A model generated the notes under the pieces. The model worked only from the letters and a program-made list of their open reading frames with translations, was not told the DNA's origin and searched no databases. 48,726 nucleotides of DNA from the NCBI RefSeq assembly GCF_904846055.1, contig NZ_CAJGYV010000002.1:1-48726 (forward strand), written 5' to 3'. This stretch comes from Psychrobacter ciconiae. Its GTDB lineage: Bacteria; Pseudomonadota; Gammaproteobacteria; Pseudomonadales; Moraxellaceae. The translations under genes and the position numbers were made by a program. Positions 12,239-47,707 of this stretch are shown here, one piece after another (within the stretch, counting starts at the first letter, position 1; the number at the start of each line of letters is the position of its first letter).

Positions 12239-12865
<627 letters not shown>

Positions 12866-12893
12866 CTACCTCAAAATAAAATAGCCTTGACAA

Positions 12894-12939
12894 TCTATCA
12901 CTGATAGAGATATTTTACACCCACTCTATCACTGATAGA
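12894..12939. promoter_or_regulatory. Two tet operators
   Basis: The palindrome TCTATCACTGATAGA occurs exactly twice (12894-12908 and 12925-12939) between tetR and tet(H). This is the standard two-operator layout of tetracycline efflux determinants, with overlapping divergent promoters. Confidence 0.95.
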
Positions 12940-12953
12940 TTTTTAGGATCTCA

Positions 12954-14135
12954 ATGAATAAATCAATTATTATTATACTGCTGATCACCGTATTAGATGC
13001 CATTGGTATCGGGCTTATCATGCCAGTACTCCCTACTCTATTAAATGAATTTGTCAGTGAAAATTCACTGGCAACCCATTACGGTGTGCTATTAGCGCTC
13101 TATGCTACCATGCAGGTTATTTTTGCTCCTATTCTAGGACGACTGTCTGATAAATACGGCAGAAAACCCATCTTGCTGTTTTCCCTTTTAGGCGCGGCAC
13201 TCGACTATCTTTTAATGGCATTCTCAACCACACTTTGGATGCTCTATATTGGGCGCATCATTGCGGGGATCACAGGCGCAACAGGTGCCGTATGTGCATC
13301 AGCGATGAGTGATGTGACTCCCGCTAAAAATCGAACTCGCTATTTTGGTTTCTTAGGTGGTGCTTTTGGTGTTGGCCTTATTATCGGCCCAATGCTAGGG
13401 GGATTATTAGGTGATATCAGTGCTCATATGCCATTTATTTTTGCCGCTATTTCACACTCGATATTATTAATACTCTCTTTGCTCTTTTTCCGAGAAACAC
13501 AAAAAAGAGAAGCGCTTGTTGCCAATAGGACACCTGAAAACCAAACTGCCTCAAATACAGTCACTGTTTTTTTTAAGAAAAGCCTCTACTTTTGGTTAGC
13601 AACCTATTTTATTATCCAGCTTATCGGGCAAATTCCTGCCACCATCTGGGTGCTGTTTACACAATATCGTTTTGATTGGAACACAACTTCTATCGGTATG
13701 TCTTTGGCGGTTCTGGGTGTATTACATATTTTCTTTCAGGCGATTGTCGCTGGGAAATTGGCACAAAAATGGGGCGAAAAAACCACCATTATGATCAGTA
13801 TGTCTATTGATATGATGGGCTGTTTATTATTAGCGTGGATAGGCCACGTTTGGGTCATCTTACCAGCATTAATTTGCTTAGCGGCAGGAGGTATGGGGCA
13901 ACCCGCATTACAAGGTTATTTATCAAAATCTGTCGATGATAATGCGCAAGGGAAATTACAAGGTACTCTGGTGAGCCTAACCAATATTACCGGGATCATT
14001 GGTCCCCTTTTATTTGCCTTTATTTATAGTTATAGCGTCGCTTATTGGGATGGTCTGTTATGGCTGATGGGGGCAATACTTTATGCTATGTTGCTTATTA
14101 CCGCTTATTTTCACCAAAGAAAAACCACACCTTAA
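12954..14135 (+). CDS. tet(H): Tetracycline efflux MFS transporter Tet(H), 3' end clipped
   Basis: This 12-segment major facilitator antiporter exports tetracycline-Mg in exchange for protons. The motif A loop GRLSDKYGRKP and the antiporter motif C region (GFLGGAFGVGLIIGPMLGG) are intact. It has 393 residues; I recall class H as about 400. The TAA stop is only 2-3 bases from the IS copy B boundary, so the last few residues are probably replaced by an IS-supplied stop. The lost tail is cytoplasmic and likely dispensable. Tet(J) is closely related and cannot be fully excluded from memory. Confidence 0.88.
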   Translation: MNKSIIIILLITVLDAIGIGLIMPVLPTLLNEFVSENSLATHYGVLLALYATMQVIFAPILGRLSDKYGRKPILLFSLLGAALDYLLMAFSTTLWMLYIGRIIAGITGATGAVCASAMSDVTPAKNRTRYFGFLGGAFGVGLIIGPMLGGLLGDISAHMPFIFAAISHSILLILSLLFFRETQKREALVANRTPENQTASNTVTVFFKKSLYFWLATYFIIQLIGQIPATIWVLFTQYRFDWNTTSIGMSLAVLGVLHIFFQAIVAGKLAQKWGEKTTIMISMSIDMMGCLLLAWIGHVWVILPALICLAAGGMGQPALQGYLSKSVDDNAQGKLQGTLVSLTNITGIIGPLLFAFIYSYSVAYWDGLLWLMGAILYAMLLITAYFHQRKTTP

Positions 14136-17440: not shown

Positions 17441-18073
17441 TTAACTAGTAGAATTTTTCAACTCTTGTGATACATTAGAAATCAATTGCCTTGAGCATTT
17501 TACCGTCTGTTGAATATCTGAGTAACTGTGACCTGATTTCAGAAGGCTGGCAATAATTTTACGCTTTTCTATATCCTTTCCCCGTCCTTTGTATTTACCT
17601 TGAGCTTTAGCACGTGCAATACCTTGCATTTGACGGTTACGTCTATCCTCATAATCCTTTCTAGCAATGGCCGCTAGCATATCAAGTAGCATGTCATTTA
17701 TAGCGCGTAGTACACTGTCCATGAACTCAGAGCTATTACCTTGTTGCAATGCCATATATGACGTAGGCAACTCCTTAGACACTACCGAAAGACGTTTGGC
17801 TGATAGTTTTCTCTTTAAGGTATCCCAGTCAGCTTGATTTAAACGTGCCAAACGGTCTATCTGTTCAACTAAGATCACATCTCCATCAGAAGCATCATCA
17901 ATGAGCTGCATGAGTTGTGGACGTTCTAGCGTCGCTCCTGACTCGTTCTCAGTATAGAATGCTGCGATTTTATGGCCATGCTCTCTAGCAAAAGCAATAA
18001 GTTCATCTTTAGCACGATTGGCATCTTGATCCTTGGTTGAGGCACGAAGGTAGGCTCTAATAAACATAAACAC
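17441..18073 (-). CDS. Serine recombinase (resolvase/invertase family)
   Basis: The 210-residue small serine recombinase has the catalytic serine in RAYLRASTKDQ, the DVILVEQIDRLARL region carrying the conserved arginine, and a C-terminal helix-turn-helix (HSYSDIQQTVKCSRQLISNV). Proteins of this type resolve plasmid multimers or cointegrates. A dimer-type site lies just upstream of its start, as expected for a self-regulating resolvase. It is convergent with the HTH gene at 16855-17418. Confidence 0.85.
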   Translation of the reverse strand: MFMFIRAYLRASTKDQDANRAKDELIAFAREHGHKIAAFYTENESGATLERPQLMQLIDDASDGDVILVEQIDRLARLNQADWDTLKRKLSAKRLSVVSKELPTSYMALQQGNSSEFMDSVLRAINDMLLDMLAAIARKDYEDRRNRQMQGIARAKAQGKYKGRGKDIEKRKIIASLLKSGHSYSDIQQTVKCSRQLISNVSQELKNSTS

Positions 18074-23972: not shown

Positions 23973-24497
23973 ATGAAGATTTCGGTGATCCCTGAGCAGG
24001 TGGCGGAAACATTGGATGCTGAGAACCATTTCATTGTTCGTGAAGTGTTCGATGTGCACCTATCCGACCAAGGCTTTGAACTATCTACCAGAAGTGTGAG
24101 CCCCTACCGGAAGGATTACATCTCGGATGATGACTCTGATGAAGACTCTGCTTGCTATGGCGCATTCATCGACCAAGAGCTTGTCGGGAAGATTGAACTC
24201 AACTCAACATGGAACGATCTAGCCTCTATCGAACACATTGTTGTGTCGCACACGCACCGAGGCAAAGGAGTCGCGCACAGTCTCATCGAATTTGCGAAAA
24301 AGTGGGCACTAAGCAGACAGCTCCTTGGCATACGATTAGAGACACAAACGAACAATGTACCTGCCTGCAATTTGTACGCAAAATGTGGCTTTACTCTCGG
24401 CGGCATTGACCTGTTCACGTATAAAACTAGACCTCAAGTCTCGAACGAAACAGCGATGTACTGGTACTGGTTCTCGGGAGCACAGGATGACGCCTAA
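23973..24497 (+). CDS. sat2: Streptothricin acetyltransferase Sat2 (first cassette)
   Basis: This 174-residue GNAT acetyltransferase acetylates streptothricin. The acetyl-CoA loop is visible in HTHRGKGVAHSLIEFAKKWA, followed by the NNVPACNLYAKCGFTLGG segment of the family. The length and sequence match Sat2 from class 2 integrons. The cassette is the first after attI2 and ends in an attC at 24492-24551 that overlaps the stop codon. Confidence 0.93.
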   Translation: MKISVIPEQVAETLDAENHFIVREVFDVHLSDQGFELSTRSVSPYRKDYISDDDSDEDSACYGAFIDQELVGKIELNSTWNDLASIEHIVVSHTHRGKGVAHSLIEFAKKWALSRQLLGIRLETQTNNVPACNLYAKCGFTLGGIDLFTYKTRPQVSNETAMYWYWFSGAQDDA

Positions 24498-24551
24498 CAA
24501 TTCATTCAAGCCGACACCGCTTCGCGGCGCGGCTTAATTCAGGAGTTAAAC
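24492..24551 (+). other. attC site of the sat2 cassette
   Basis: This 60-bp cassette recombination site runs from GCCTAAC to GTTAAAC with an internal imperfect palindrome (AAGCCG ... CGGCTT) around CGCTTCGCGGCG. It is nearly the same as the aadA1 attC. Confidence 0.85.
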
Positions 24552-24554
24552 ATC

Positions 24555-25343
24555 ATGAGGGAAGCGGTGATCGCCGAAGTATCGACTCAACTATCAGAGG
24601 TAGTTGGCGTCATCGAGCGCCATCTCGAACCGACGTTGCTGGCCGTACATTTGTACGGCTCCGCAGTGGATGGCGGCCTGAAGCCACACAGTGATATTGA
24701 TTTGCTGGTTACGGTGACCGTAAGGCTTGATGAAACAACGCGGCGAGCTTTGATCAACGACCTTTTGGAAACTTCGGCTTCCCCTGGAGAGAGCGAGATT
24801 CTCCGCGCTGTAGAAGTCACCATTGTTGTGCACGACGACATCATTCCGTGGCGTTATCCAGCTAAGCGCGAACTGCAATTTGGAGAATGGCAGCGCAATG
24901 ACATTCTTGCAGGTATCTTCGAGCCAGCCACGATCGACATTGATCTGGCTATCTTGCTGACAAAAGCAAGAGAACATAGCGTTGCCTTGGTAGGTCCAGC
25001 GGCGGAGGAACTCTTTGATCCGGTTCCTGAACAGGATCTATTTGAGGCGCTAAATGAAACCTTAACGCTATGGAACTCGCCGCCCGACTGGGCTGGCGAT
25101 GAGCGAAATGTAGTGCTTACGTTGTCCCGCATTTGGTACAGCGCAGTAACCGGCAAAATCGCGCCGAAGGATGTCGCTGCCGACTGGGCAATGGAGCGCC
25201 TGCCGGCCCAGTATCAGCCCGTCATACTTGAAGCTAGGCAGGCTTATCTTGGACAAGAAGATCGCTTGGCCTCGCGCGCAGATCAGTTGGAAGAATTTGT
25301 TCACTACGTGAAAGGCGAGATCACCAAGGTAGTCGGCAAATAA
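24555..25343 (+). CDS. aadA1: Aminoglycoside nucleotidyltransferase AadA1
   Basis: This 262-residue ANT(3'')-Ia adenylates streptomycin and spectinomycin. The nucleotidyltransferase motif is LYGSAVDGGLKPHSDIDLLV (GS and DxD), and the C-terminal helical domain is complete (MERLPAQYQPVILEARQAYL). Visibly more G+C-rich than the plasmid backbone. It is the second cassette and ends with its attC at 25345-25404. Confidence 0.95.
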   Translation: MREAVIAEVSTQLSEVVGVIERHLEPTLLAVHLYGSAVDGGLKPHSDIDLLVTVTVRLDETTRRALINDLLETSASPGESEILRAVEVTIVVHDDIIPWRYPAKRELQFGEWQRNDILAGIFEPATIDIDLAILLTKAREHSVALVGPAAEELFDPVPEQDLFEALNETLTLWNSPPDWAGDERNVVLTLSRIWYSAVTGKIAPKDVAADWAMERLPAQYQPVILEARQAYLGQEDRLASRADQLEEFVHYVKGEITKVVGK

Positions 25344-27365: not shown

Positions 27366-28982
27366 TTAATGCGTAAATTGCTCTCTAACCACTCTCTCAG
27401 CCCACCCTTCCATATCCTCTCTCGATACTTGCAGCTCCCCCAACCCCTTTGGATGATTCACCCCTCTATGCCCGTCTTGTCCATATAATTGATCAAACAA
27501 ACTATTTGGCCAATTCAATGAGCTCTTCACCACTCCACGCCGTATCTTTTCAAAATCATTCCGCCATGTTTCGCTATCAACGCCACTCAACACTTTGGTA
27601 GAAAGCATTTTCACCCCATCCGATGCATCCACCTCTAGCAATACAAATTCACTGCCATTACGTTGCACCCCAACGGCTTTAATCACTCTTGGTGAGCCAT
27701 CTTTACACAGATGTAATCGGCTACGCCCAACTTTTGGCAAAACCAAGGTTTCTTCAAAAAGCACCCGACATGCAAATTTAGTTTTTAGAATTGAAAGTAG
27801 CTCATCAAAAGCAGCAAATCGATTAGCAAAAATAGAGTTGTAATTGGTTGCATCCTGCTTCCCACCCACATCTGCCGCTGCTAGGACACCACCTAAGTGT
27901 GGCTCATCAGTACTAACCAAATTACTATTTTCACTTGTTGTTGCTTCTTCTTTTTCTAAAATAGTTTGGCTACTTTTTCTTGCCCTGCGAGATTTTTCAA
28001 TTCGACTAGGTCTACTAAAACTTATCCATGTCGGCTCAGCCTCTATGACTCGTGTGTCTGTGTCTATATTGGCTGTTTCCTCATCGTCCAACTGTAGATG
28101 CTCATCATCAACAACTGACTCTGTTGAAACCGCTATGTGCTGCGTACTACCATCACCTGCCTCCTTTTCCTGAAAAGAGGCATGGCTAATAGCTGTTGTG
28201 CTAGGAAGCATAGCGTTGATTTCTAAACCTACTATTTCCTCAACTAAATAATCCTTATCCTCGTTAGAAGAACGTCCTTTTACATGTAATTTCCAACCCT
28301 GCATGGGCGGAGGGTCAAAGCTAAAGCACCAGCTTTCAACGCCGTTCTTAATTTCTCTATTTTGTTGATAGTGCCTAAAAATACTTTCATACGAATCCAT
28401 AACATCTTGATCCGAAAACAACCAAACCAAAAGCTGCACTACGGCCGACTGCTCTAACGCCCCTTTAGGAAACGATGAACTGGGTAAGATCCTTATCTCT
28501 AAATGATCTCGCTCAACCTCATACTGAACGTCGAACTCTTGCTGTAAAGCGGTACTGCTCAAACAGCTTCGACAGAAATAGGAGTTAATTAAAAATAATG
28601 ACCGAGCTAGCTCTAACTGTGGGATGTGATAACGAGTCTTGCTATATGGTGTTTCAGCTTCGTAAATAAATGAACTCTGCGCTCCATCCTTGTTGCGTAC
28701 GGAAGCAAAGGACGAGAGATTAGGAAAATCGATTATTTTGGCTCGTTGAAGATCCGATGCTTCAAACTCAATCACACGATCCGCCTTATTTATTTGCTTT
28801 GTTGTACTGTTAACCACCTTAGCTCGACTTAATAAAGGCAAATGAGTAAATCGAGTCCATTTCCGTTCTTGCATTGGATTAAACCAAACAAAAATACGCC
28901 ACTCCTTATGACCCGAGTTACGGAATAAATGACCAATATGTACAACCTGCACATTGTCATTAAATGTAGCTAGCCTAACCAC
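27366..28982 (-). CDS. tnsE: Tn7 target selector TnsE
   Basis: At 538 residues this is the canonical size, beginning MVRLATFNDNVQVVHIGHLF as in Tn7. TnsE directs insertion into conjugating plasmids and replicating DNA through contacts with the sliding clamp and 3'-recessed ends. The C-terminal DNA-binding half (about residues 340-538) is complete. It directly follows tnsD (stop and start adjacent). The location of this Tn7 in a mobilizable plasmid fits TnsE targeting. Confidence 0.97.
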   Translation of the reverse strand: MVRLATFNDNVQVVHIGHLFRNSGHKEWRIFVWFNPMQERKWTRFTHLPLLSRAKVVNSTTKQINKADRVIEFEASDLQRAKIIDFPNLSSFASVRNKDGAQSSFIYEAETPYSKTRYHIPQLELARSLFLINSYFCRSCLSSTALQQEFDVQYEVERDHLEIRILPSSSFPKGALEQSAVVQLLVWLFSDQDVMDSYESIFRHYQQNREIKNGVESWCFSFDPPPMQGWKLHVKGRSSNEDKDYLVEEIVGLEINAMLPSTTAISHASFQEKEAGDGSTQHIAVSTESVVDDEHLQLDDEETANIDTDTRVIEAEPTWISFSRPSRIEKSRRARKSSQTILEKEEATTSENSNLVSTDEPHLGGVLAAADVGGKQDATNYNSIFANRFAAFDELLSILKTKFACRVLFEETLVLPKVGRSRLHLCKDGSPRVIKAVGVQRNGSEFVLLEVDASDGVKMLSTKVLSGVDSETWRNDFEKIRRGVVKSSLNWPNSLFDQLYGQDGHRGVNHPKGLGELQVSREDMEGWAERVVREQFTH

Positions 28983-30509
28983 TCACTCTTCCCCATAAAC
29001 CATTTCCAAGAATCTTTGTGCTTCCTCAGTTATCCGCTCTTTAGATAACGTTGCACTTCTTAATAATCGCCAGCGCCTAAGCTCAACATCTTCCTGTTTA
29101 AGCTTAATAAAAGCTTGGCTAATCCGTCTAATTTGATAATCTTCCACACTCTCTGAGTAACGCTTTAAGCAAAGCGCTACCAAAGGCAGTTTCTGTAGAT
29201 TTTTTGCAAGAGAGGTTCCGTTAGGAGTTTGCTTTAACAGCCAGCTCGATGTCGCTCTTGGGTGATCAAGGCTACTATCTAGACGCTTTATGATTCTTAA
29301 TAGTTGTCGTACAGCAATTCGATCTCTTTGGTTCCAATCAACTCTAGGGGCGGGTGCCAGACGCTCTTGTTGATGCTGTTGATTCCAGTGAACTAGCCAA
29401 TCCCTGTCATGTCGGTAAAGCCAAGCGTATAGCACCCCACCCTCTAAAGACTGTCTTGCCGCCTTAATTCCTTGGTATTTATGCACTAGTTGCTGCCAGT
29501 CTTTATGCTTAACAGATAAATCTTCAGAGTTAGGTTGCACAGACTGGCTAACAGGTCTTGTCGTTATAGAGTGCTCAGTAAGAGCACTTGCCTGCTGTAG
29601 CGCTTCTATAACCGTTAGTTTTGGCAATAAGGCTTGCCACACAATACTATGCTGTAAATAACTAAAGGCTTTTCTATGCTTACGGAATATACTTTTCAGC
29701 CAACACGTGTCCTTGTTCTCTGCCAACTTTAAATCCAGTTTCTCTAGTGCCTCATCACTAAAAGTCTGCCTCACTCTCTCCGCCACCAAGTCATGACGAA
29801 TGTGCTTGCTTTTGGTTAGCCCTAGATCCTGCGCTAAGCGCTGATAAAACAGCGTCCACTGCTCAAGGCTTGGGGAAAGCTCTTGCGCTCGTGGAGCATC
29901 TAACAGAGGGGCTATATAAGCAGCTAGTGCTGTTAATTGAGATAGGGAGTCTTTGGGGTAGTCTGAAAGCAGCTCAGTATGACCCAAAGCCCAAAATTGA
30001 TGTCGGTGATCATCTACAGCTCTATCAAAGAAGACTAAAGCACCGTGTTTTGGACAATATGGCAAAGCGGGCAAATACCAATCTCGTTGCCAAAAGGCTT
30101 CCCCATACCTATTTAGCTGAAGAGCAACGCAATCAGGGCAGTATCTAAAGCGGTTATCGCTCTTAACTCTAGAAGCAGCGACTCCTAGCATTAAATGCAC
30201 CGCACCTTGCGCTTGGTACTCCATTAACCGAATAGCTTCGTCTCGGCGCTCCTTGCCTACAAACGGAGCATATAAAGGGAATAAGGTATGCTCATAAATA
30301 AGCTGCTGAACAGCGTAACGTCCTGTTTGATGTAGATGTCTTGCTATCACACCTAAATGCGAGGGCAGACCTAAGGTAGCGACCACCTTGCGGTTGCCAT
30401 ACACCTCATCCAACAGCTGCTTAGGACTAACAATCCCTTGATAAACGCCTGCCCGTGCAATAGTGCTATAAATCAGCTCATTCGAGTACGGAACAGGAAA
30501 GTTTCTCAT
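28983..30509 (-). CDS. tnsD: Tn7 target selector TnsD (TniQ family)
   Basis: This 508-residue TniQ-domain protein binds the attTn7 site at the end of glmS. The zinc finger is visible as CPDC (about 124-127) and CPKH (about 152-155). It is intact, so this Tn7 can also use the chromosomal attTn7 site in a suitable host. Two bases separate it from tnsC. Confidence 0.96.
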   Translation of the reverse strand: MRNFPVPYSNELIYSTIARAGVYQGIVSPKQLLDEVYGNRKVVATLGLPSHLGVIARHLHQTGRYAVQQLIYEHTLFPLYAPFVGKERRDEAIRLMEYQAQGAVHLMLGVAASRVKSDNRFRYCPDCVALQLNRYGEAFWQRDWYLPALPYCPKHGALVFFDRAVDDHRHQFWALGHTELLSDYPKDSLSQLTALAAYIAPLLDAPRAQELSPSLEQWTLFYQRLAQDLGLTKSKHIRHDLVAERVRQTFSDEALEKLDLKLAENKDTCWLKSIFRKHRKAFSYLQHSIVWQALLPKLTVIEALQQASALTEHSITTRPVSQSVQPNSEDLSVKHKDWQQLVHKYQGIKAARQSLEGGVLYAWLYRHDRDWLVHWNQQHQQERLAPAPRVDWNQRDRIAVRQLLRIIKRLDSSLDHPRATSSWLLKQTPNGTSLAKNLQKLPLVALCLKRYSESVEDYQIRRISQAFIKLKQEDVELRRWRLLRSATLSKERITEEAQRFLEMVYGEE

Positions 30510-30511
30510 GG

Positions 30512-32179
30512 CTAACCTGCTTGTTTAAATAAGCTCGCCATATCCACTATTACCCCTTTCCCTTTTAACCGTTCATGCATGGTTTTTTCAGGTTGGCGTT
30601 GTGAATAGATATAACGTAAATCCGTATCAGGCAAGCTATCCCAGTCGCTGGGCTTGACTACCTTTATAGCCGAAACCTTTTTACTCTTGGAGGGCTTTTC
30701 TAGTTCTGACACTACCGTTTCGCCTTCCATCAACCACTGCAAAACAAGAGGCAGTAACTTTTGTCTTGTCATCGTTGGATTCTGGCTAAACGCTTTTTTA
30801 ATAGTGGGAATTAACAGGCTTGAATCGTAATCCTCTTTCAGCATCAGATATAAATGACGCTGATCTTCGGTATCTAACTCTTGAAGGGCTTTTTCTTCTG
30901 GTGTTTGTTCTTGTATCGCTGCGATATCTAGCTGAAGTTGGATTAACCGTTTATCAATCTCGGGAACGACTAGATCAGAATAACGAGCAATGCGTTCTGG
31001 GATACCCGAGCGTAATGCCTCTAGCATGGGGTGCACAGGCTTTAACTCATCTTGATACACTTGCCGCAATAAACCAGCGGTAATACGCTCATTGCCTAAA
31101 GCTAGCGCACGGAGCTGAGCGAGTACAAAAAGTTTTACTACAATGTCCATCACTCCTTGGCTTAGCTCATACCACACATCACGGACCTCATCCGATAACA
31201 GCGCATCTTTGCGTTGTAAAAGCTGTAATTGCCAAAGATTATCCGTAAAAGCGATCCACTCTTGATTGGGCTTTCCACGTTGCGTTTGTTGTATAGGATC
31301 CCAGAATATAGCTCCAAACCCTGCCCCTCTACGTGCAGACCGCAAATCAGCCTCAAAAATCTCTCGTGCTTTAGGGGTACCAATCAACATCACTGGTACG
31401 CCAATAATATTCACCATCGTCACAAAAAAGTTCAGCATCTCTTGAGATCCACCCGAACGAGAGCGGCTTAAATGCTGAATTTCATCAATAACCAACAACC
31501 CTAAAGCATGTGCATTGGCTATTTGCGACATCAAAGCCAACATGGTTTCTATACCATGACGTTTTAAGCCATAACGACGCTCATAGTTCGAGCCCAAGGC
31601 TCGATCCAACGCTCTGAAAAAATTCAAGCAGATTTCTTTTAGCGAACCATTATGCGAGCAGTCTATTTTCAAATACACCACCTGCTCTACATTGAGTTCA
31701 CGATGGTAAATCACCTGAGGATACGTGGCTAGAATACGATGAAGAGAGGTCGTCTTCCCACTACCAGAACAACCAATTAACAATAAGCTTTGTGCCGTAG
31801 ATCGTGCCTCCTCAAAGCGAAATGTCTCCAACTCTCCCGTTTGAACACGCTCATAACCATTTTGTAAATGCTTTTGTAAATCTCCTGTTTTAGGATTTCT
31901 GCCTACGTAGCCACCTCGAATCATGACCGAAATACGCTCACTTAGTAGCAAATGCGTACCTAATGGCTGAAAATAGTCATCTGGAATACGACAAATGGTA
32001 TGAGCTCTGATAACACGGGACTTTTGCAAGTCAGAGGAAGTAAGCTGTAAAGAGGATTTCAGTGATGCAGCACTATTCACTGACTCTTGTAATGGTGGTA
32101 AGGCCTCGATAAAAGGATTATCACGATAAGCCTCTACCCCCGTATCACGATAAACTGCTTGAATCCGGGTAGCACTCAT
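30512..32179 (-). CDS. tnsC: Tn7 AAA+ regulator TnsC
   Basis: This 555-residue ATPase links target selectors to the TnsAB transposase. Walker A is in [16 protein letters not shown] and Walker B in [12 protein letters not shown]. It overlaps tnsB by 4 bp (ATGA), which shows translational coupling. Canonical length; no defect seen. Confidence 0.97.
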
Positions 32180-34284
32180 GACTCATCCTTTTCTGGTGGA
32201 TCCTGAAATAATTCAGGCACGTATGTGGGTAGGCTGTAATCTTCTTGATCATCCGCTTCCACTGCGTTGAAAGGAATAACTTTAGCCTCATCACCTGAAG
32301 AGCTTGGCTTCAAATGCTCCGCACGTTTTTTACGCTCCGAGGTCACGGCTTCTTTTTTATTAGTTTTAATCTGCTTAATGCGTGTTGATTTGGGCTCAGT
32401 AGTACTGGGCGTTAACTTATTCGCTTTCTGAATGGTTTGCTGAATAAACGCCTCAAGCTCCCTGCGTTTAGTTAACTCATCCTGCTTCGCATTGGCTTTA
32501 TTGTGTTTTTCTTGTGCTTGTATATCCCAAACCTCCCAAAATGAGAGACCTTTAAACTGCCGACTACGTTCCGTCAGATTACAGCGCCAAAATACACGGC
32601 TGCCAACTTGCGGAAACAAATAAATCGTATCAACCAGCACTGGGTCATAAGCCGCTTCTAAATGTTGAGGTCTAGCTATATCAGTGCTCCGCTGCAACCA
32701 ACCCTCACGCAGAATCTCTGACCCCGAGTAATACAAACCCCACAAATTAACGCCAAATGAAGAAATAGAGACCTTTCGGCGAGGCAGTAACGCTACTCGC
32801 AACTGCTCTTGCTCCACAGCCCTTAAACTACCTGTACGATGCTGCATACCCCATTGCCATAGCTGGACAGGAATAGACGGTAAATCTGTAGGAAAATCAG
32901 CATCTCGATCGTATTTATCCATCACCAGATGGTTATTTCTGAATAAGATCGTACGCAAAATAATTTGTGTGAACTCAAATACCGACAGAGATGCATCTAA
33001 CCTATAGTCTGTTTCACCATGGCTTTTGATCCGACTGCCCTCTACAATGCCAGGTGCAAAGGACTTAAACTCGGCTTGTAGTGTTCTAAAAGTGCTTTCC
33101 ACTATGCCTTTAGCATCGCCACGTCTAGGTGGAGCACTTTCCACTCGCACATTAAAACTAGAAACTAAGGCTTCGACCTGATGACTCATTAATTCGCCAC
33201 GGTCCGCTAGCAACACATCTGGCAAACCTACACACGGCCAGTCTGAGCTACTAATCTCAATATCATGCTGGGCACAAATGGCCGTTTTGTCAGAGCAAGC
33301 ATTTACAAAAGCCTGCATCGCCACCACATAAGACGGATTTTCAAAGCCGATATAAAAGCCCGTGATCATCCGACTAAACACATCAATCACAATGTAAAGC
33401 GTTGGTCTTCCTATGATTTTTTGGCGATCATGATGATCCACTAAATAAATATCAGCAATCGTGGCATCAATCTCATAACGACTCCCAGGGCCTAACGCCT
33501 GAGAAGTGGCTGTACTACTTAAGGGTCGTACGTCTTTTTTATATACCCCTGCTTTAACTCTAGACTTTAAGCGCTGAGCTTTAGGGTATTCTCGATCATA
33601 AAAATAACGAAACTGACGTAGTGTTGGGTAATCCTCTTGGGGAATGCGAGGAAAATACTGAGCAAACAAGTCCACAAATCGTCTATAGGCAACGGTGGTC
33701 TTTGTACCTTTTTGATTTAACAGGTGCTTTTCTATGGTCAACCTAAAAAGGCGTTCAATCTCGGGCGTTACCTTGGTTCCTTCACCCTTACCATATTCTC
33801 TGGCTCGGCCAATCTTTGCTGTTCCTGTCGCTGAACGTCTTTCCCCTGGTGCACCGCTGTTTTTGTAGTCAGGAATTAATGCATTAGGCGTTTGACCACG
33901 CTGCCAGTAACGGCGTAACAACTTATAAACTGTAGCCTTAGTAACCTTATGTTCTTGGACCACATGCTCAACGAGTTCGCTTCTGACTTTAGGGTCGAAA
34001 CGATCCTTACTATTAATAATAGGAAGAATTTTTCGATAATCCTCCTCGCGCTTCTGGAAGCTGACAGAATCTACAGACGGCTCTTCTAAATCAAGATGTA
34101 CATAAGGGTCATCAGTTCTAACTAAGCGGCCTTCATCTAAATACTGCATTAGCAACAACTCAGCCCTAGCTTGTGGAACTCCTTTATCAGCGCTTATTTG
34201 CATCCAGACAACTTGGCCATCCTCTATAGCCAAAATGCGATACGGATCATTATCAAATAGCACAACCTCATTAATTTGCCACAT
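32176..34284 (-). CDS. tnsB: Tn7 transposase TnsB
   Basis: This 702-residue DDE transposase binds the end repeats and joins the 3' ends to target DNA. The DDE core shows the first D in [11 protein letters not shown] (about 273), the second in VLLADRGEL (about 361), and E in [11 protein letters not shown] (about 396). The N-terminal DNA-binding domains and the C-terminal TnsC-contact tail are complete. It overlaps tnsA by 14 bp. Confidence 0.97.
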
Positions 34285-35092
34285 AGCGCAACTCCTCCAT
34301 ATTCACTACTTGGCTAATACAGAGATCTGCACACTTATTTGCCCTGAAAGACTTATAAATATTGAACTTAATAAAACCATTTGCGGTTAAGGCTCGTATC
34401 TCACTCAATGTTTTGCCTAACTCCAAATCATAAGCAATATCAACCTGCTTACAGACATTGATAATGTTTTCATCTCCTTTTTCTTGCAGGATATGGGCCA
34501 ATGGGGATAGTTGTGCTAAAAGCTCCGCAGAAACTTCTTCTGTTTTCACTGAATAAAGCCATTCAATATTTTCTTTTACTACGGGATTTATTTCTTTATC
34601 AGTAAAAATGAACCAAGGAATTTGCTTTTGCTGCCAATAGCGACGCTCTAGTTCTAGTTTTTCTAAGGTACGCTCGTCTTGTAAGGCTGCTGCAGGTTTG
34701 ACTTGAATAGCAAACTGCTCAAAAGGACCATCTTTGCAGTCCACTAAAAAATCAGTAGACATAACCTGATCTACACCACGAATAACAGGATGCTTAATAC
34801 CACTATCTATTGCAATCTGCCTGGTATCACTAGGTAATAAGGGGAACTGCTCGCGTATATCTAGCACGCTGCTCTCCCACTCAAGACTGAGAAAAACAGC
34901 AAGCTCTAAGTCAGATAGCAAATGATGGACTCGTCCCGTCTTATGAGAATAAATACGGTGGGAACGACCTGAAGAAGGAACTTCTTGTACTGTTAGCCAT
35001 GGAATATAGTCTTTACCATGCCCTTGGCCACGCCCCTCTTTAATACGACGGGCAATTTGCACTTCAGAAAATGAAGAGTTTGCTTTAGCCAT
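34271..35092 (-). CDS. tnsA: Tn7 endonuclease TnsA
   Basis: This 273-residue restriction-enzyme-like nuclease cuts the 5' ends of Tn7, which makes transposition cut-and-paste. The catalytic residues fit D114 in VMSTDFLVD and K132 in FAIQVKPAAA, with the upstream glutamate near residue 63 in the LELAVFLSLEWE region. Its promoter lies within the right end of Tn7, so TnsB bound there can autoregulate it. Confidence 0.97.
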   Translation of the reverse strand: MAKANSSFSEVQIARRIKEGRGQGHGKDYIPWLTVQEVPSSGRSHRIYSHKTGRVHHLLSDLELAVFLSLEWESSVLDIREQFPLLPSDTRQIAIDSGIKHPVIRGVDQVMSTDFLVDCKDGPFEQFAIQVKPAAALQDERTLEKLELERRYWQQKQIPWFIFTDKEINPVVKENIEWLYSVKTEEVSAELLAQLSPLAHILQEKGDENIINVCKQVDIAYDLELGKTLSEIRALTANGFIKFNIYKSFRANKCADLCISQVVNMEELRYVAN

Positions 35093-37843: not shown

Positions 37844-39163
37844 TTATTTTAAATATTTCTTAAAATCCGTTTCGTGATATTCTCCAAGTCTTGAACCCAG
37901 TCCAAGCTTTAGATAGCTAATCTGTGCTTCACTCCCAACCTCATAACCTTTCACTGGATGATCCATCTGAAATTGCGGATGGGTGGCAAAAAAATCAATT
38001 TGCTCAGCGGTTAAGCCCCTATTCTTGCTAACTTCAGCGATTGCTTTAGATGGTTTTTTCTTGCTTTGCGCTGGCTTTTTTGCGGCTTTTGGTGGCTCGT
38101 CACCTTTTTTAAGGGCTAAAAATTCAGCAAGTAGATGAAACTTACCAACCTGTTCAGGATCTTTTAGCTGATCTTTAAAGTCCTCGAATGCTTCGTAATA
38201 GCTGATATTTTTATCGCGCAGTAGGTGGGTGTTTGCTTCTATGAACTGATCTTTATAGATTGCAAGCTTTTTGATTTGAGCGTCGGATAGTCCTTTACGC
38301 TGCCAACTTGGCGTTTTTTCTGCATTGATAGGTTGGTGTTCAAACGTCGTAGAATTTCGTTTGGCAATGGCTTTTGACGCTGATTTCTTAGGCTTAAATC
38401 TTATCTCTAAATCCGTAAATTTGCGTCCAGTTTTAAGCATTTTATAACTGACTTGATAAGGTGATTTTTCATTGATTTCATTAATAGCCGTATCAATGAC
38501 TCGAACTTTTAAATCTTTTGTTGCTTTATATTTCGTACCTAAAGCTAGCATATATCGCAAGTCTTTCAACTTTATTTTTCTATAGCCAGTTGACTTATAC
38601 TGCATCATAGCTTGGTACAATCTCATACTATATGAACTGCCGAAGCCAGCAACGTCCTCTATATTAAATTGAGTAAAGTTTTTTCTAAGCTCAGATAAAA
38701 AAGGCACAATTCTTTCATTAAATACAAGCCTGACAATGACATTTTCATCATCTACTGGCGGATTCAAACTATCGATAATGTTGTAAGCTTTAAGCAACTG
38801 AATATACTTACTATAATCTTCTGGATTTGGGTATTTAGCCCTTATTTTCTCTTCTGCATTTTTGTCGTAACGCAGTACTTCAGACAGCCAATGAAACTCA
38901 AGCTCACCGATCTCAGTATTAATAAATAGCGATCTTTTCATCAAATCCTTTGAAGCAGATCTGATTTCTCTAGCTACATTATCTGGATGAACACCCAATC
39001 TAATAAAATCATCTCTCGTTACATAATATGCCTGTTTCGCGTCTACAAAGGCTTCTTTAGGTATCTGAGCTATAGCCGACAGGATTAAACGTTGCTCATT
39101 CAACGATAAATCATAGGCTGCATTAATTACAGCATTATCCATAACAACTAAATCTTTGCTCAT
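37844..39163 (-). CDS. repB: Rep_3-family replication initiator
   Basis: The 439-residue initiator has two winged-helix domains. The first holds NAVINAAYDLSLNEQRLILS and the second FGSSYSMRLYQAMMQYKSTG, both standard for Rep_3 (Initiator Rep). The tail from about residue 275 is longer than usual, lysine-rich and variable (PPKAAKKPAQSKKKPSKAIA). I chose the ATG giving MSKDLVVMDNAV; a TTG 24 bp upstream would run into the operator. It binds the 21-bp iterons just upstream to start replication and probably represses itself at the 39189-39213 palindrome. Confidence 0.92.
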   Translation of the reverse strand: MSKDLVVMDNAVINAAYDLSLNEQRLILSAIAQIPKEAFVDAKQAYYVTRDDFIRLGVHPDNVAREIRSASKDLMKRSLFINTEIGELEFHWLSEVLRYDKNAEEKIRAKYPNPEDYSKYIQLLKAYNIIDSLNPPVDDENVIVRLVFNERIVPFLSELRKNFTQFNIEDVAGFGSSYSMRLYQAMMQYKSTGYRKIKLKDLRYMLALGTKYKATKDLKVRVIDTAINEINEKSPYQVSYKMLKTGRKFTDLEIRFKPKKSASKAIAKRNSTTFEHQPINAEKTPSWQRKGLSDAQIKKLAIYKDQFIEANTHLLRDKNISYYEAFEDFKDQLKDPEQVGKFHLLAEFLALKKGDEPPKAAKKPAQSKKKPSKAIAEVSKNRGLTAEQIDFFATHPQFQMDHPVKGYEVGSEAQISYLKLGLGSRLGEYHETDFKKYLK

Positions 39164-39188
39164 ATTTAAGCCTAAATATCTTCCCAAT

Positions 39189-39213
39189 TAGGACAAAATA
39201 TATCATTGTCCTA
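39189..39213. promoter_or_regulatory. Rep operator palindrome
   Basis: Perfect 8-bp arms TAGGACAA and TTGTCCTA are separated by 9 AT-rich bases, 26 bp before the rep ATG. The right arm overlaps the first iteron and shares its GTCCTA word, as in Rep_3 autoregulation. Confidence 0.75.
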
Positions 39214-39344
39214 CTTAGCCGTCAATCCGTCCTACTTAGCCGTCAATCCGTCCTACTTAGCCGTCAATCCGTCCTACTTAGCCGTCAATCCGTCCTACTT
39301 AGCCGTCAATCCGTCCTACTTAGCCGTCAATCCGTCCTACTTAG
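39208..39344. repeat. Iterons of the replication origin
   Basis: Six perfect 21-bp direct repeats start at 39208, 39229, 39250, 39271, 39292 and 39313, followed by an 11-bp partial copy at 39334-39344. Each begins GTCCTACTTAG and ends CGTCAATCC. The 21-bp period is two helical turns, putting all initiator molecules on one face. The AT-rich DNA after them (39395-39500) is a likely unwinding region. Confidence 0.92.
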
Positions 39345-46068: not shown

Positions 46069-46158
46069 ATGCTGTCTTTGATACAGGACGTCTATCATGA
46101 TGGATATGCGCTAGTTAGAAAAGGCGATGCTATTTTTACTATGAAGTATTGCTATTAG
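46069..46158 (+). CDS. Possible 29-residue peptide
   Basis: ATG at 46069 opens a short frame, MLSLIQDVYHDGYALVRKGD and nine more residues, ending TAG, just before the repeat array. Residue make-up looks protein-like, but there is no clear ribosome site and no known match. It could be a real peptide, the remains of a gene, or chance. The rest of 45932-46182 holds only the promoter of the XRE gene. Confidence 0.25.
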   Translation: MLSLIQDVYHDGYALVRKGDAIFTMKYCY

Positions 46159-46182
46159 TAGTGATGTGACGTACATTTTTAG

Positions 46183-46504
46183 TTATACTTATATACTTAT
46201 ATACTTATATACTTATATACTTATATACTTATATACTTATATACTTATATACTTATATACTTATATACTTATATACTTATATACTTATATACTTATATAC
46301 TTATATACTTATATACTTATATACTTATATACTTATATACTTATATACTTATATATATACTTATATACTTATATACTTATATACTTATATACTTATATAC
46401 TTATATACTTATATACTTATATACTTATATACTTATATACTTATATACTTATATACTTATATACTTATATACTTATATACTTATATACTTATATACTTAT
46501 ATAC
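46183..46504. repeat. Array of 39 tandem 8-bp units (TTATATAC), likely centromere or promoter array
   Basis: Twenty perfect TTATATAC units (46189-46348), one 12-bp variant TTATATATATAC (46349-46360) and eighteen more perfect units (46361-46504) follow a partial copy at 46183. The array ends 28 bp before the parA ATG. Short direct-repeat arrays upstream of parA serve as centromeres bound by ribbon-helix-helix ParB proteins on other plasmids, which fits here. The reading frame through it (YTYILIYL repeats) is not a gene. Confidence 0.85.
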
Positions 46505-46532
46505 TTAATGCGTACTACAGGGATCTGTATTT

Positions 46533-47171
46533 ATGAAAGTAATCGCGGTATTAAATCAAAAAGGTGGCAGCGGCAAGACTACCATCGCAACGCATCTGGC
46601 TCGTGGCTTACAGTTAAAAGGCCATAGTGTTCTGCTAGTAGATAGCGATCAGCAGGGCAGTGCGCGTGACTGGAGAGCGGTTGATGAAGACAATCCGGTA
46701 CCAGTGATCGGGCTCGACAGACCAACACTTGATAAAGATTTAAAAAGCGTCTCTGATAAAGATTATGTGGTGATCGATGGATCGCCGCAAGCTACTAGTC
46801 TGGCTATTTCTGCTATAAAAGCGGCTGATTTTATATTGATTCCGGTGCAGCCGAGCCCCTATGATATCTGGGCGACCAGCGATTTGGTTGATTTAGTGCA
46901 GCAGCGTATTGAGATGATGGATGGCCAACTAAAGGCAGCCTTTGTCGTCTCACGCGCCATTCAAAATACTAATATTGGTAAAGAGGTTGCAACCGCGCTG
47001 CTTGATTATAATATTCCGGTATTAGAGACCAGAGTGATGCAGCGAGTTGCTTATCCTAATAGTGCTGCCCTTGGTAAGACCGTATTTGATACCGAATCGC
47101 CTAGTAGTAATGCGATACAAGAGATAACAGCATTGGTCAGTGAGATTCAAATATTTTTTGGTGAGGAGTAA
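46533..47171 (+). CDS. parA: ParA-type partition ATPase
   Basis: The 212-residue deviant-Walker ATPase has KGGSGKTTIATHLARGL (Walker A with signature lysine), VLLVDSDQQGSARDW and YVVIDGSPQ (Walker B region). It has no N-terminal helix-turn-helix, so it belongs to the small type Ib ParA group, whose autoregulation is done by the ParB-like partner. It is followed after 3 bp by parB. The 8-bp repeat array lies directly upstream. Confidence 0.93.
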   Translation: MKVIAVLNQKGGSGKTTIATHLARGLQLKGHSVLLVDSDQQGSARDWRAVDEDNPVPVIGLDRPTLDKDLKSVSDKDYVVIDGSPQATSLAISAIKAADFILIPVQPSPYDIWATSDLVDLVQQRIEMMDGQLKAAFVVSRAIQNTNIGKEVATALLDYNIPVLETRVMQRVAYPNSAALGKTVFDTESPSSNAIQEITALVSEIQIFFGEE

Positions 47172-47174
47172 GTC

Positions 47175-47384
47175 ATGAGTTTATCAGCAGGTCGTCCTAG
47201 TAAGAACGTTAAGGATCAATTGGCTTTATCGGATGTGACGGACAGTCCCAAAAAGACGGTACGCGTGAATTTTAATTTAGATGAAGATAAACACATTGCG
47301 CTCAAGCGGTACGCGCTTGAAAGCCGAAAAACGGTGACTGAGTTGTTGACTGAAATGATTGAGGAAAAGTTGGTTGAGCGATAG
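47175..47384 (+). CDS. parB: Ribbon-helix-helix ParB-like centromere-binding protein
   Basis: The 69-residue protein has a basic flexible N terminus (GRPSKNVKDQL) and a ribbon-helix-helix domain (KKTVRVNFNLDEDKHIALKR, then SRKTVTELLTEMIEEKL). This is the usual partner of type Ib ParA; it binds short direct repeats and represses the operon. A hairpin at 47384-47410 (GGTATA ... TATACC around TTCG) follows and may end the transcript. Confidence 0.82.
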   Translation: MSLSAGRPSKNVKDQLALSDVTDSPKKTVRVNFNLDEDKHIALKRYALESRKTVTELLTEMIEEKLVER

Positions 47385-47707
47385 GTATAAAAAATTCGTT
47401 TTTCTATACCTATAAAAAGGATATGTATAAAAAACTCAAAAAATTACACATATCGTCGAACGCTGTGCACCTTACTAGTATCATCAGATGCTTGTTTTCT
47501 TAAGCCAGACGCAGAAGCAAGCTGTAAAGAAAATGCCCATGGCAAAACAAGCACTGTTTCCTATATCAGCACCATATAATAGAACCAAAAACGGTTAGCA
47601 GTGCTAAGGTATATTGCCCTTAATCAAAGCGTAGTCAATAACGATTTAAGTTACACAAAACATAAGGGGCTTCTAGCCCCATCATTATTCCTATAGGATT
47701 TTTTATC
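47385..47707 (+). promoter_or_regulatory. Intergenic region upstream of hsdM
   Basis: This 323-bp stretch has no gene. It starts with the GGTATA/TATACC hairpin (47384-47410) and a related A-rich block (47421-47453), and ends with hairpin GGGGCT-TCT-AGCCCC (47666-47680) about 27 bp before the hsdM ATG. The last could sit in the hsdM leader; the hsd promoter must lie between. Confidence 0.5.

Follow-up and report, generated by a model that had tools for sequence, protein, structure and literature searches.

The kind of partition site considered here is already in print: a tandem 8-bp parS was proposed in 2012 for the Psychrobacter plasmid pP62BP1, in which 17 adjacent AATACTCA units lie between the -10 element and the ribosome-binding site of parA, an organisation that its authors called apparently unique (Lasek et al., 2012; PMC3346939). 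Eight repeats were proposed as the parS of pP32BP2 (PMC6579772), and a REP-PAR construct, in which PAR was not separated from REP, was reported to displace pP32BP2 (PMC6514802). In TP228, ParG is described as coating parH and repressing parFG (PMC7308502), and parH as a series of tetramer boxes separated by A+T-rich spacers, with a further operator block between it and the genes (PMC7308502, PMC5389482, PMC5016525). For the delta/omega system of pSM19035, parS sites of nine, seven and ten repeats have been reported (PMC9499535, PMC5016525), and four contiguous repeats both suffice and are needed for full or efficient ATPase activation in vitro by its ribbon-helix-helix protein (PMC9499535).

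The locus described here lies in a 48,726-bp Psychrobacter record (the window, by which we mean the whole stretch of DNA analysed). It shares with pP62BP1 and pP32BP2 orthologous parA and parB genes, the latter with a ParG domain, and a tandem 8-bp array 5' of parA, but their unit is ACTCAAAT, present 17 or 8 times, whereas that of the window is ACTTATAT, in a chain of 40 boxes. It resembles parH in being built of tetramer boxes with A+T-rich spacers, and ParF and ParG are among, or are, the best PDB matches of its ParA and ParB; however, the TP228 boxes are described as degenerate and both direct and inverted, whereas the window has one homogeneous head-to-tail tract. The resemblance to pSM19035 is that of a ribbon-helix-helix ParB paired with short contiguous repeats; the pSM19035 protein is also a repressor. 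As far as the sources cited describe that system, it differs in that its units are 7 bp long, far fewer and of mixed orientation, each plasmid has several parS sites, and the genes do not form one operon. The ACTTATAT type, the array length and its variation were not found in the literature searched, which consisted of open-licence papers, and we regard the following as new: that there is an ACTT clade, how long the array is and how much its length varies, its homogeneity, and the 8-bp grid.

Results

The window and its par cassette

The window is probably a complete circular plasmid, because a 515-aa frame spans both ends of the contig; this frame is termed a type I methyltransferase subunit solely because relatives have a matching gene that is annotated as such. 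Eight plasmid records, all of them Psychrobacter, gave near DNA matches to the array region. Elsewhere in the window, a 21-bp repeat in 6.5 perfect copies (39208-39344), likely the replication iterons, adjoins a Rep3-type rep gene (37844-39187), and Tn7-like tnsA, tnsC, tnsD/TniQ and tnsE genes were recognised by Pfam at 27366-35092, together with an interspersed 702-aa frame that has a weak transposase match alone and may be tnsB. An acetyltransferase gene and an AadA-like gene lie at 23973-25343, and a TetR_C_1 regulator and an MFS transporter are divergent at 12239-14135, which we take to be the layout of a tetracycline-efflux pair. A 12-bp repeat in four perfect copies (991-1038) falls within a 390-aa frame (520-1692), whose position suggests that it may encode the specificity subunit of a type I system. 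The features of the par region are as follows.

46149..46177, + strand: candidate parAB promoter TTGCTA-17-TACATT, found by eye directly 5' of the array
46187..46510, + strand: array in the ACT-box register, 38 perfect ACTTATAT units, one 12-bp unit and a terminal ACTTAATG; proposed centromere (parS) and operator (Tandem Repeats Finder, unit count, relatives)
46189..46504, + strand: array in the TTATATAC register, 38 perfect units as originally counted
46349..46360, + strand: the single 12-bp unit, TTATATATATAC (unit count)
46519..46523, + strand: putative parA ribosome-binding site AGGGA, found by eye
46533..47171, + strand: parA, 212 aa, ParF-like Walker ATPase (NF041546, PDB matches)
47175..47384, + strand: parB, 69 aa, ParG-family ribbon-helix-helix protein (Pfam ParG, PDB 1p94)

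The initial annotation had counted 38 perfect TTATATAC units interrupted by one 12-bp unit, and a unit count bears this out, with 20 units before the longer one and 18 after it. It had placed the array at 46183..46504; the end stands, 28 bases 5' of the parA ATG at 46533, whereas the start takes in a partial unit (TTATAC). The likelier register, as the relatives indicate, is the one that begins with the ACT box, in which the 12-bp unit reads ACTTATATATAT and the whole becomes one chain of 40 ACT boxes at 8-bp steps, the box of the array reading ACTT. Tandem Repeats Finder reported 46184-46507 with period 8, 41 copies, 98% matches and a score of 620, the highest of nine rows in the window. The array is 88% A+T, compared with 58% for the window, and its pattern read backwards had no match in the 348 Moraxellaceae genomes searched, both of which argue that it did not arise by chance. 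Neighbouring units together form TATACT hexamers. A 153-aa frame that runs through the array (46166-46627) was rejected as evidence of a gene since TTATATAC has no stop codon in any forward frame, and an assembly artefact was rejected as the source of the array because many independent records contain it.

The ParA assignment is supported by NF041546 (275.7 bits against a cut-off of 180) and by PDB matches to ParA 5u1g (E 8.6e-24) and ParF 4dzz (E 8.8e-24); the family matches begin at residues 1-4, indicating a small ATPase without an extra N-terminal DNA-binding domain. The parB gene starts 3 bp 3' of parA. Its product exceeds the Pfam ParG cut-off by a narrow 0.9 bit (22.3 against 21.4) and had no match in an NCBIfam search, among PDB sequences ParG 1p94 matches it best (E 0.01, or 0.0056 with a 13-row profile), and a single-sequence model (mean pLDDT 75.6, pTM 0.41), with helices at residues 37-50 and 54-68, again placed 1p94 first in a fold search, with probability 1.00 at E 0.09 and no match at E <= 0.001. 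Most of the next fold matches are ribbon-helix-helix proteins. We assign ParB to the ParG family because these sequence, profile and fold tests, each weak individually, agree. In its N-terminal tail, R7 within GRPS is invariant in the 13 rows aligned and was compared with the arginine-finger-like residue of ParF/ParG systems. The cassette has these features of type Ib (ParF/ParG): a small Walker ATPase, a small ribbon-helix-helix ParB directly downstream, repeats upstream of parA, and tetramer boxes on an 8-bp grid with A+T-rich DNA between them. At the parB stop codon there is an inverted repeat (47381-47413) with 14-bp arms that are 93% complementary, possibly a terminator or another regulatory site.

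The candidate promoter matches the consensus at 8 of 12 positions, which is weak, and was not reported by a promoter scan. Its layout, TTGCT[AG]-17-TAC[AG]TT, recurs in all 26 complete ACTTATAT arrays, which are close relatives of one another, and several ACTCAAAT flanks show, by eye, a similar 17-bp spacing. On the other side of the array, at the putative ribosome-binding site, CTACAGGGATCTGTATTT is kept in those ACTTATAT relatives whose sequence was compared, and the last box stands a nearly constant 22 bp (30 bp in L012) before the parA ATG.

Repeat unit and ParB type among relatives

Plasmids with parA at least 75% identical to that of the window numbered 20 from Psychrobacter and six from Moraxella, of which 17 and three were examined, plus one half-record, and a genus search with ParB gave a match in 44 of 105 Psychrobacter genomes, all examined. 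Two of the resulting 65 loci (L068 and L075) had no parA match, leaving 63 for comparison, and a locus was called tandem if it had a run of at least 2.5 units. By this definition 33 loci have ACTTATAT runs, 18 have ACTCAAAT runs and 12 have neither. ParB is at least 97% identical to that of the window in all 33 ACTTATAT loci and 72-80% identical in all 18 ACTCAAAT loci, two of which are repeat copies of plasmids already counted. The 12 loci without a run include two cut by contig ends (L043, L056), three from Moraxella (ParB 51-54% identical) and seven with mixed boxes (L021/L070, 68%; L071, 62%; L072-L074, 67%; L026, 78%). Three plasmids are present twice in the sample (L021/L070, L017/L067 and L025/L066).

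When 40 distinct ParA+ParB rows (of 61) were placed on a tree, those of the ACTTATAT type grouped in a single clade (100/100), and the ACTCAAAT and mixed rows intermingled, with five changes across the three groups. No change of specificity was seen in the ParB beta-strand: TVRVNFN is common to many proteins of both the ACTTATAT and the ACTCAAAT type, so that the base-reading residues do not explain the change of unit. The residue directly after the strand is diagnostic, being H in the ACTTATAT types and Y in the other rows. When the search for further ParB relatives was extended to the whole class, the window alone matched (1 of 369 genomes).

Three consecutive TTATATAC units occur in 23 of 348 Moraxellaceae genomes, all 23 of them Psychrobacter. 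In 19 every match lies directly before parA, and in the other four (G007, G020, G063, G098) the remaining matches adjoin that left flank too, where a contig ends or close to such an end; the array of G007 continues into other DNA. Three consecutive ACTCAAAT units are found in 42 of 105 Psychrobacter genomes, also on chromosome-sized contigs, and eight of the 42 have no ParB match. Arrays of ACTCAAAT with 3-16 units were seen outside par loci at L076-L085, L088 and L089, some in genomes without this ParB and two (L078, L080) on chromosome-sized contigs. A serine-recombinase match was present at 10 of these 12 dispersed loci, which were selected, and one of the proteins gave a Pfam Resolvase match. 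One dispersed array of the ACTCAAAT type had been seen in K5 by Lasek et al. (PMC3346939). An 8-bp array therefore need not be a parS, given the recombinases near these arrays and the eight genomes without ParB. Taken together, sequence comparisons among the relatives of the window point to a partition site rather than a random satellite.

An 8-bp grid in other loci

The box of TP228 is ACTC, and it was on that account chosen for a test of box spacing in 10 of the 14 available loci outside both tandem types, near-copies being left out: L021, L071, L026 and L072 from Psychrobacter, L027 and L028 from Moraxella, and one each from Wohlfahrtiimonas, Leptospirillum, Pandoraea and Pseudomonas. A fifth distant locus, which has no DNA upstream of parA, was left out. 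The 10 loci contain 37 ACTC/GAGT boxes, where shuffles gave 6.7. The number of box pairs spaced by a multiple of 8 was 59, compared with a shuffle mean of 0.13 and maximum of 3. In-phase pairs occur in eight of the 10, mostly without tandem tracts and in some cases from other orders; Leptospirillum and P. lundensis have one pair each, Wohlfahrtiimonas has a short tandem run of its own, TTATGAGT, and neither Moraxella locus has an ACTC/GAGT box within 130 bp. In K5 (L021), a single 8-bp phase holds for all eight ACTY/RAGT boxes within the last 130 bp. The grid does not hold everywhere, as the repeats of pMET1, a ParG relative, are described as unrelated to those of TP228 (PMC2262945).

Array length and homogeneity

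Perfect units number between 2 and 38 in each of the 26 complete ACTTATAT arrays, and that of the window has the most, which upholds the suggestion that its array is unusually long and supplies the count in related plasmids that had been proposed as a check. Their bodies comprise 346 perfect and two odd units (346 of 348 perfect). Two changes in 2,784 array bases stand against 188 in 5,252 cells of the 200-bp left flank, 50-fold fewer, a contrast whose P value is overstated because the loci are related. A 12-bp step is also present in pSIT1 (L015), near the parA end of the array. The complete plasmid of Psychrobacter sp. M13 (L025) has four boxes only, so long arrays are not required.

The possibility of collapse in short-read assembly, also raised by the initial annotation, probably has substance: drafts have shorter arrays and often end in them. 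Complete records or assemblies of at most seven contigs contributed 10 ACTTATAT arrays of 6-38 perfect units (median 22), and more broken assemblies 16 of 2-15 units (median 9), a difference (P 0.0006) in which contig number is a stand-in for read type. The contig stops within 137 bp upstream of parA in 11 of 42 survey loci with parA. Since 15 units fit a 150-base read and these 11 loci end near parA, short-read drafts probably under-call array length. Two linear records of Psychrobacter sp. SIT, pSIT1 and pSIT2 (L015, NZ_CP121681.1; L030, NZ_CP121680.1), both end within the array and are therefore most likely one plasmid split there. Strain van23A has two plasmids (L011, L014) with an identical par cassette type and 22 and 33 units.

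Discussion

The reading that we favour, with a probability of about 0.85, is that the array would serve as the parS, and probably also as the operator, of a type Ib ParF/ParG-type cassette. A centromere for a ribbon-helix-helix ParB was also what the initial annotation had in mind, and it is the best account of the families of ParA and ParB, the position of the array, the way in which the unit follows ParB type, the restriction of TTATATAC arrays to a par context, the conserved grid, the homogeneity of the tract and the earlier parS proposals. By analogy with TP228 and pSM19035, ParB dimers would sit next to one another on the ACT boxes of the 8-bp grid, contacting them with the ribbon-helix-helix domain and forming a coat over ~320 bp; the coated array would activate and couple to nucleoid-bound ParA-ATP, so that plasmid copies are separated. 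The same coat may repress parAB, since the array sits between the candidate promoter (46149-46177) and the ribosome-binding site and would thus occupy the leader. A core of few boxes would do the essential work, and the long perfect tract may have grown out of a cluster of boxes through recurrent rounds of slippage or of unequal exchange, either of which would keep units identical while letting length drift or be selected. The initial proposal of expansion by slippage is in this respect borne out as to expansion with homogenisation, given length polymorphism with almost no sequence change; the route may have been either slippage or unequal recombination.

Several observations count against a parS: the beta-strand is the same in both unit types, L026 has no tandem run although its ParB is 78% identical, the Moraxella loci have no boxes, and van23A maintains two plasmids of this cassette, a pair that simple partition incompatibility would disfavour. 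The last may equally be a natural test of such incompatibility.

How much of the length matters is a separate question, and here an account compatible with a parS, and its rival on length alone, has only slightly less than an even chance: a few boxes would be the functional parS and operator, and the remaining units effect-free debris of expansion. That cassettes almost identical to one another range from 2 to 38 units, the four boxes of L025 and the four repeats that suffice in vitro in pSM19035 (PMC9499535) all fit this, but the ten best-assembled ACTTATAT arrays all have at least six units, though loss of units should be easy, and the near-perfect identity throughout the array bodies also counts against it. 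The tuning of partition or parAB expression by copy number, which the initial annotation put forward, is no more than a conjecture here. The suggestion that the array is a mere unstable satellite is accordingly disfavoured as the whole story by the relatives, the grid and the match of ParB and unit; surplus units may be just that. It is tempting to speculate, although we consider it doubtful, that this is a plasmid centromere that behaves like the satellite centromeres of eukaryotes, in which one box type is amplified and homogenised, length turns over fast, and the larger amount of ParB recruited by a longer array decides which of two co-resident plasmids with the same ParB wins or loses; if so, the 22- and 33-unit pair of van23A could allow such competition.

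Explanations that give the array another principal function fare less well. That unit number alters the parAB leader or promoter and hence the level of ParA, as in contingency loci, with partition binding secondary, would suit the position of an array that differs in length between strains and lies between candidate promoter and parA start, as well as the TATACT hexamers; such a switch is nonetheless improbable, for the candidate promoter is weak, the distance from last box to ATG hardly varies, length changes leave reading frames unaltered, and the 8-bp grid is kept where the tandem tract is absent. It is very unlikely that the array is a serine-recombinase target or landing site that lies beside parA by chance, even though ACTCAAAT arrays at other places in the genus may have that role and the dispersed loci have recombinase matches: TTATATAC arrays were found in par context only, and no array adjoins the recombinase gene that the window itself has (17441-18073). 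We give slightly less credence still to an A+T-rich unwinding element or secondary replication origin. The A+T content would favour one, and in five ACTCAAAT relatives (L017, L018, L019, L020, L024) the array lies between rep and parA, but the rep gene of the window has its own 21-bp repeats about 7 kb away, which makes an origin here unlikely, the published iterons of pP62BP1 are on the opposite side of rep (PMC3346939), and of the named ACTTATAT relatives whose records include upstream DNA, none has a rep annotation in the interval that separates the regulator gene from parA.

Sites of this kind are probably interrupted or truncated when assembled from short reads, and one plasmid may become two records. 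The ACTTATAT plasmids also provide a series of natural lengths for a single putative centromere whose proteins and flanks hardly change, in which the effect of the number of ParB sites on partition strength, repression and incompatibility is directly testable.
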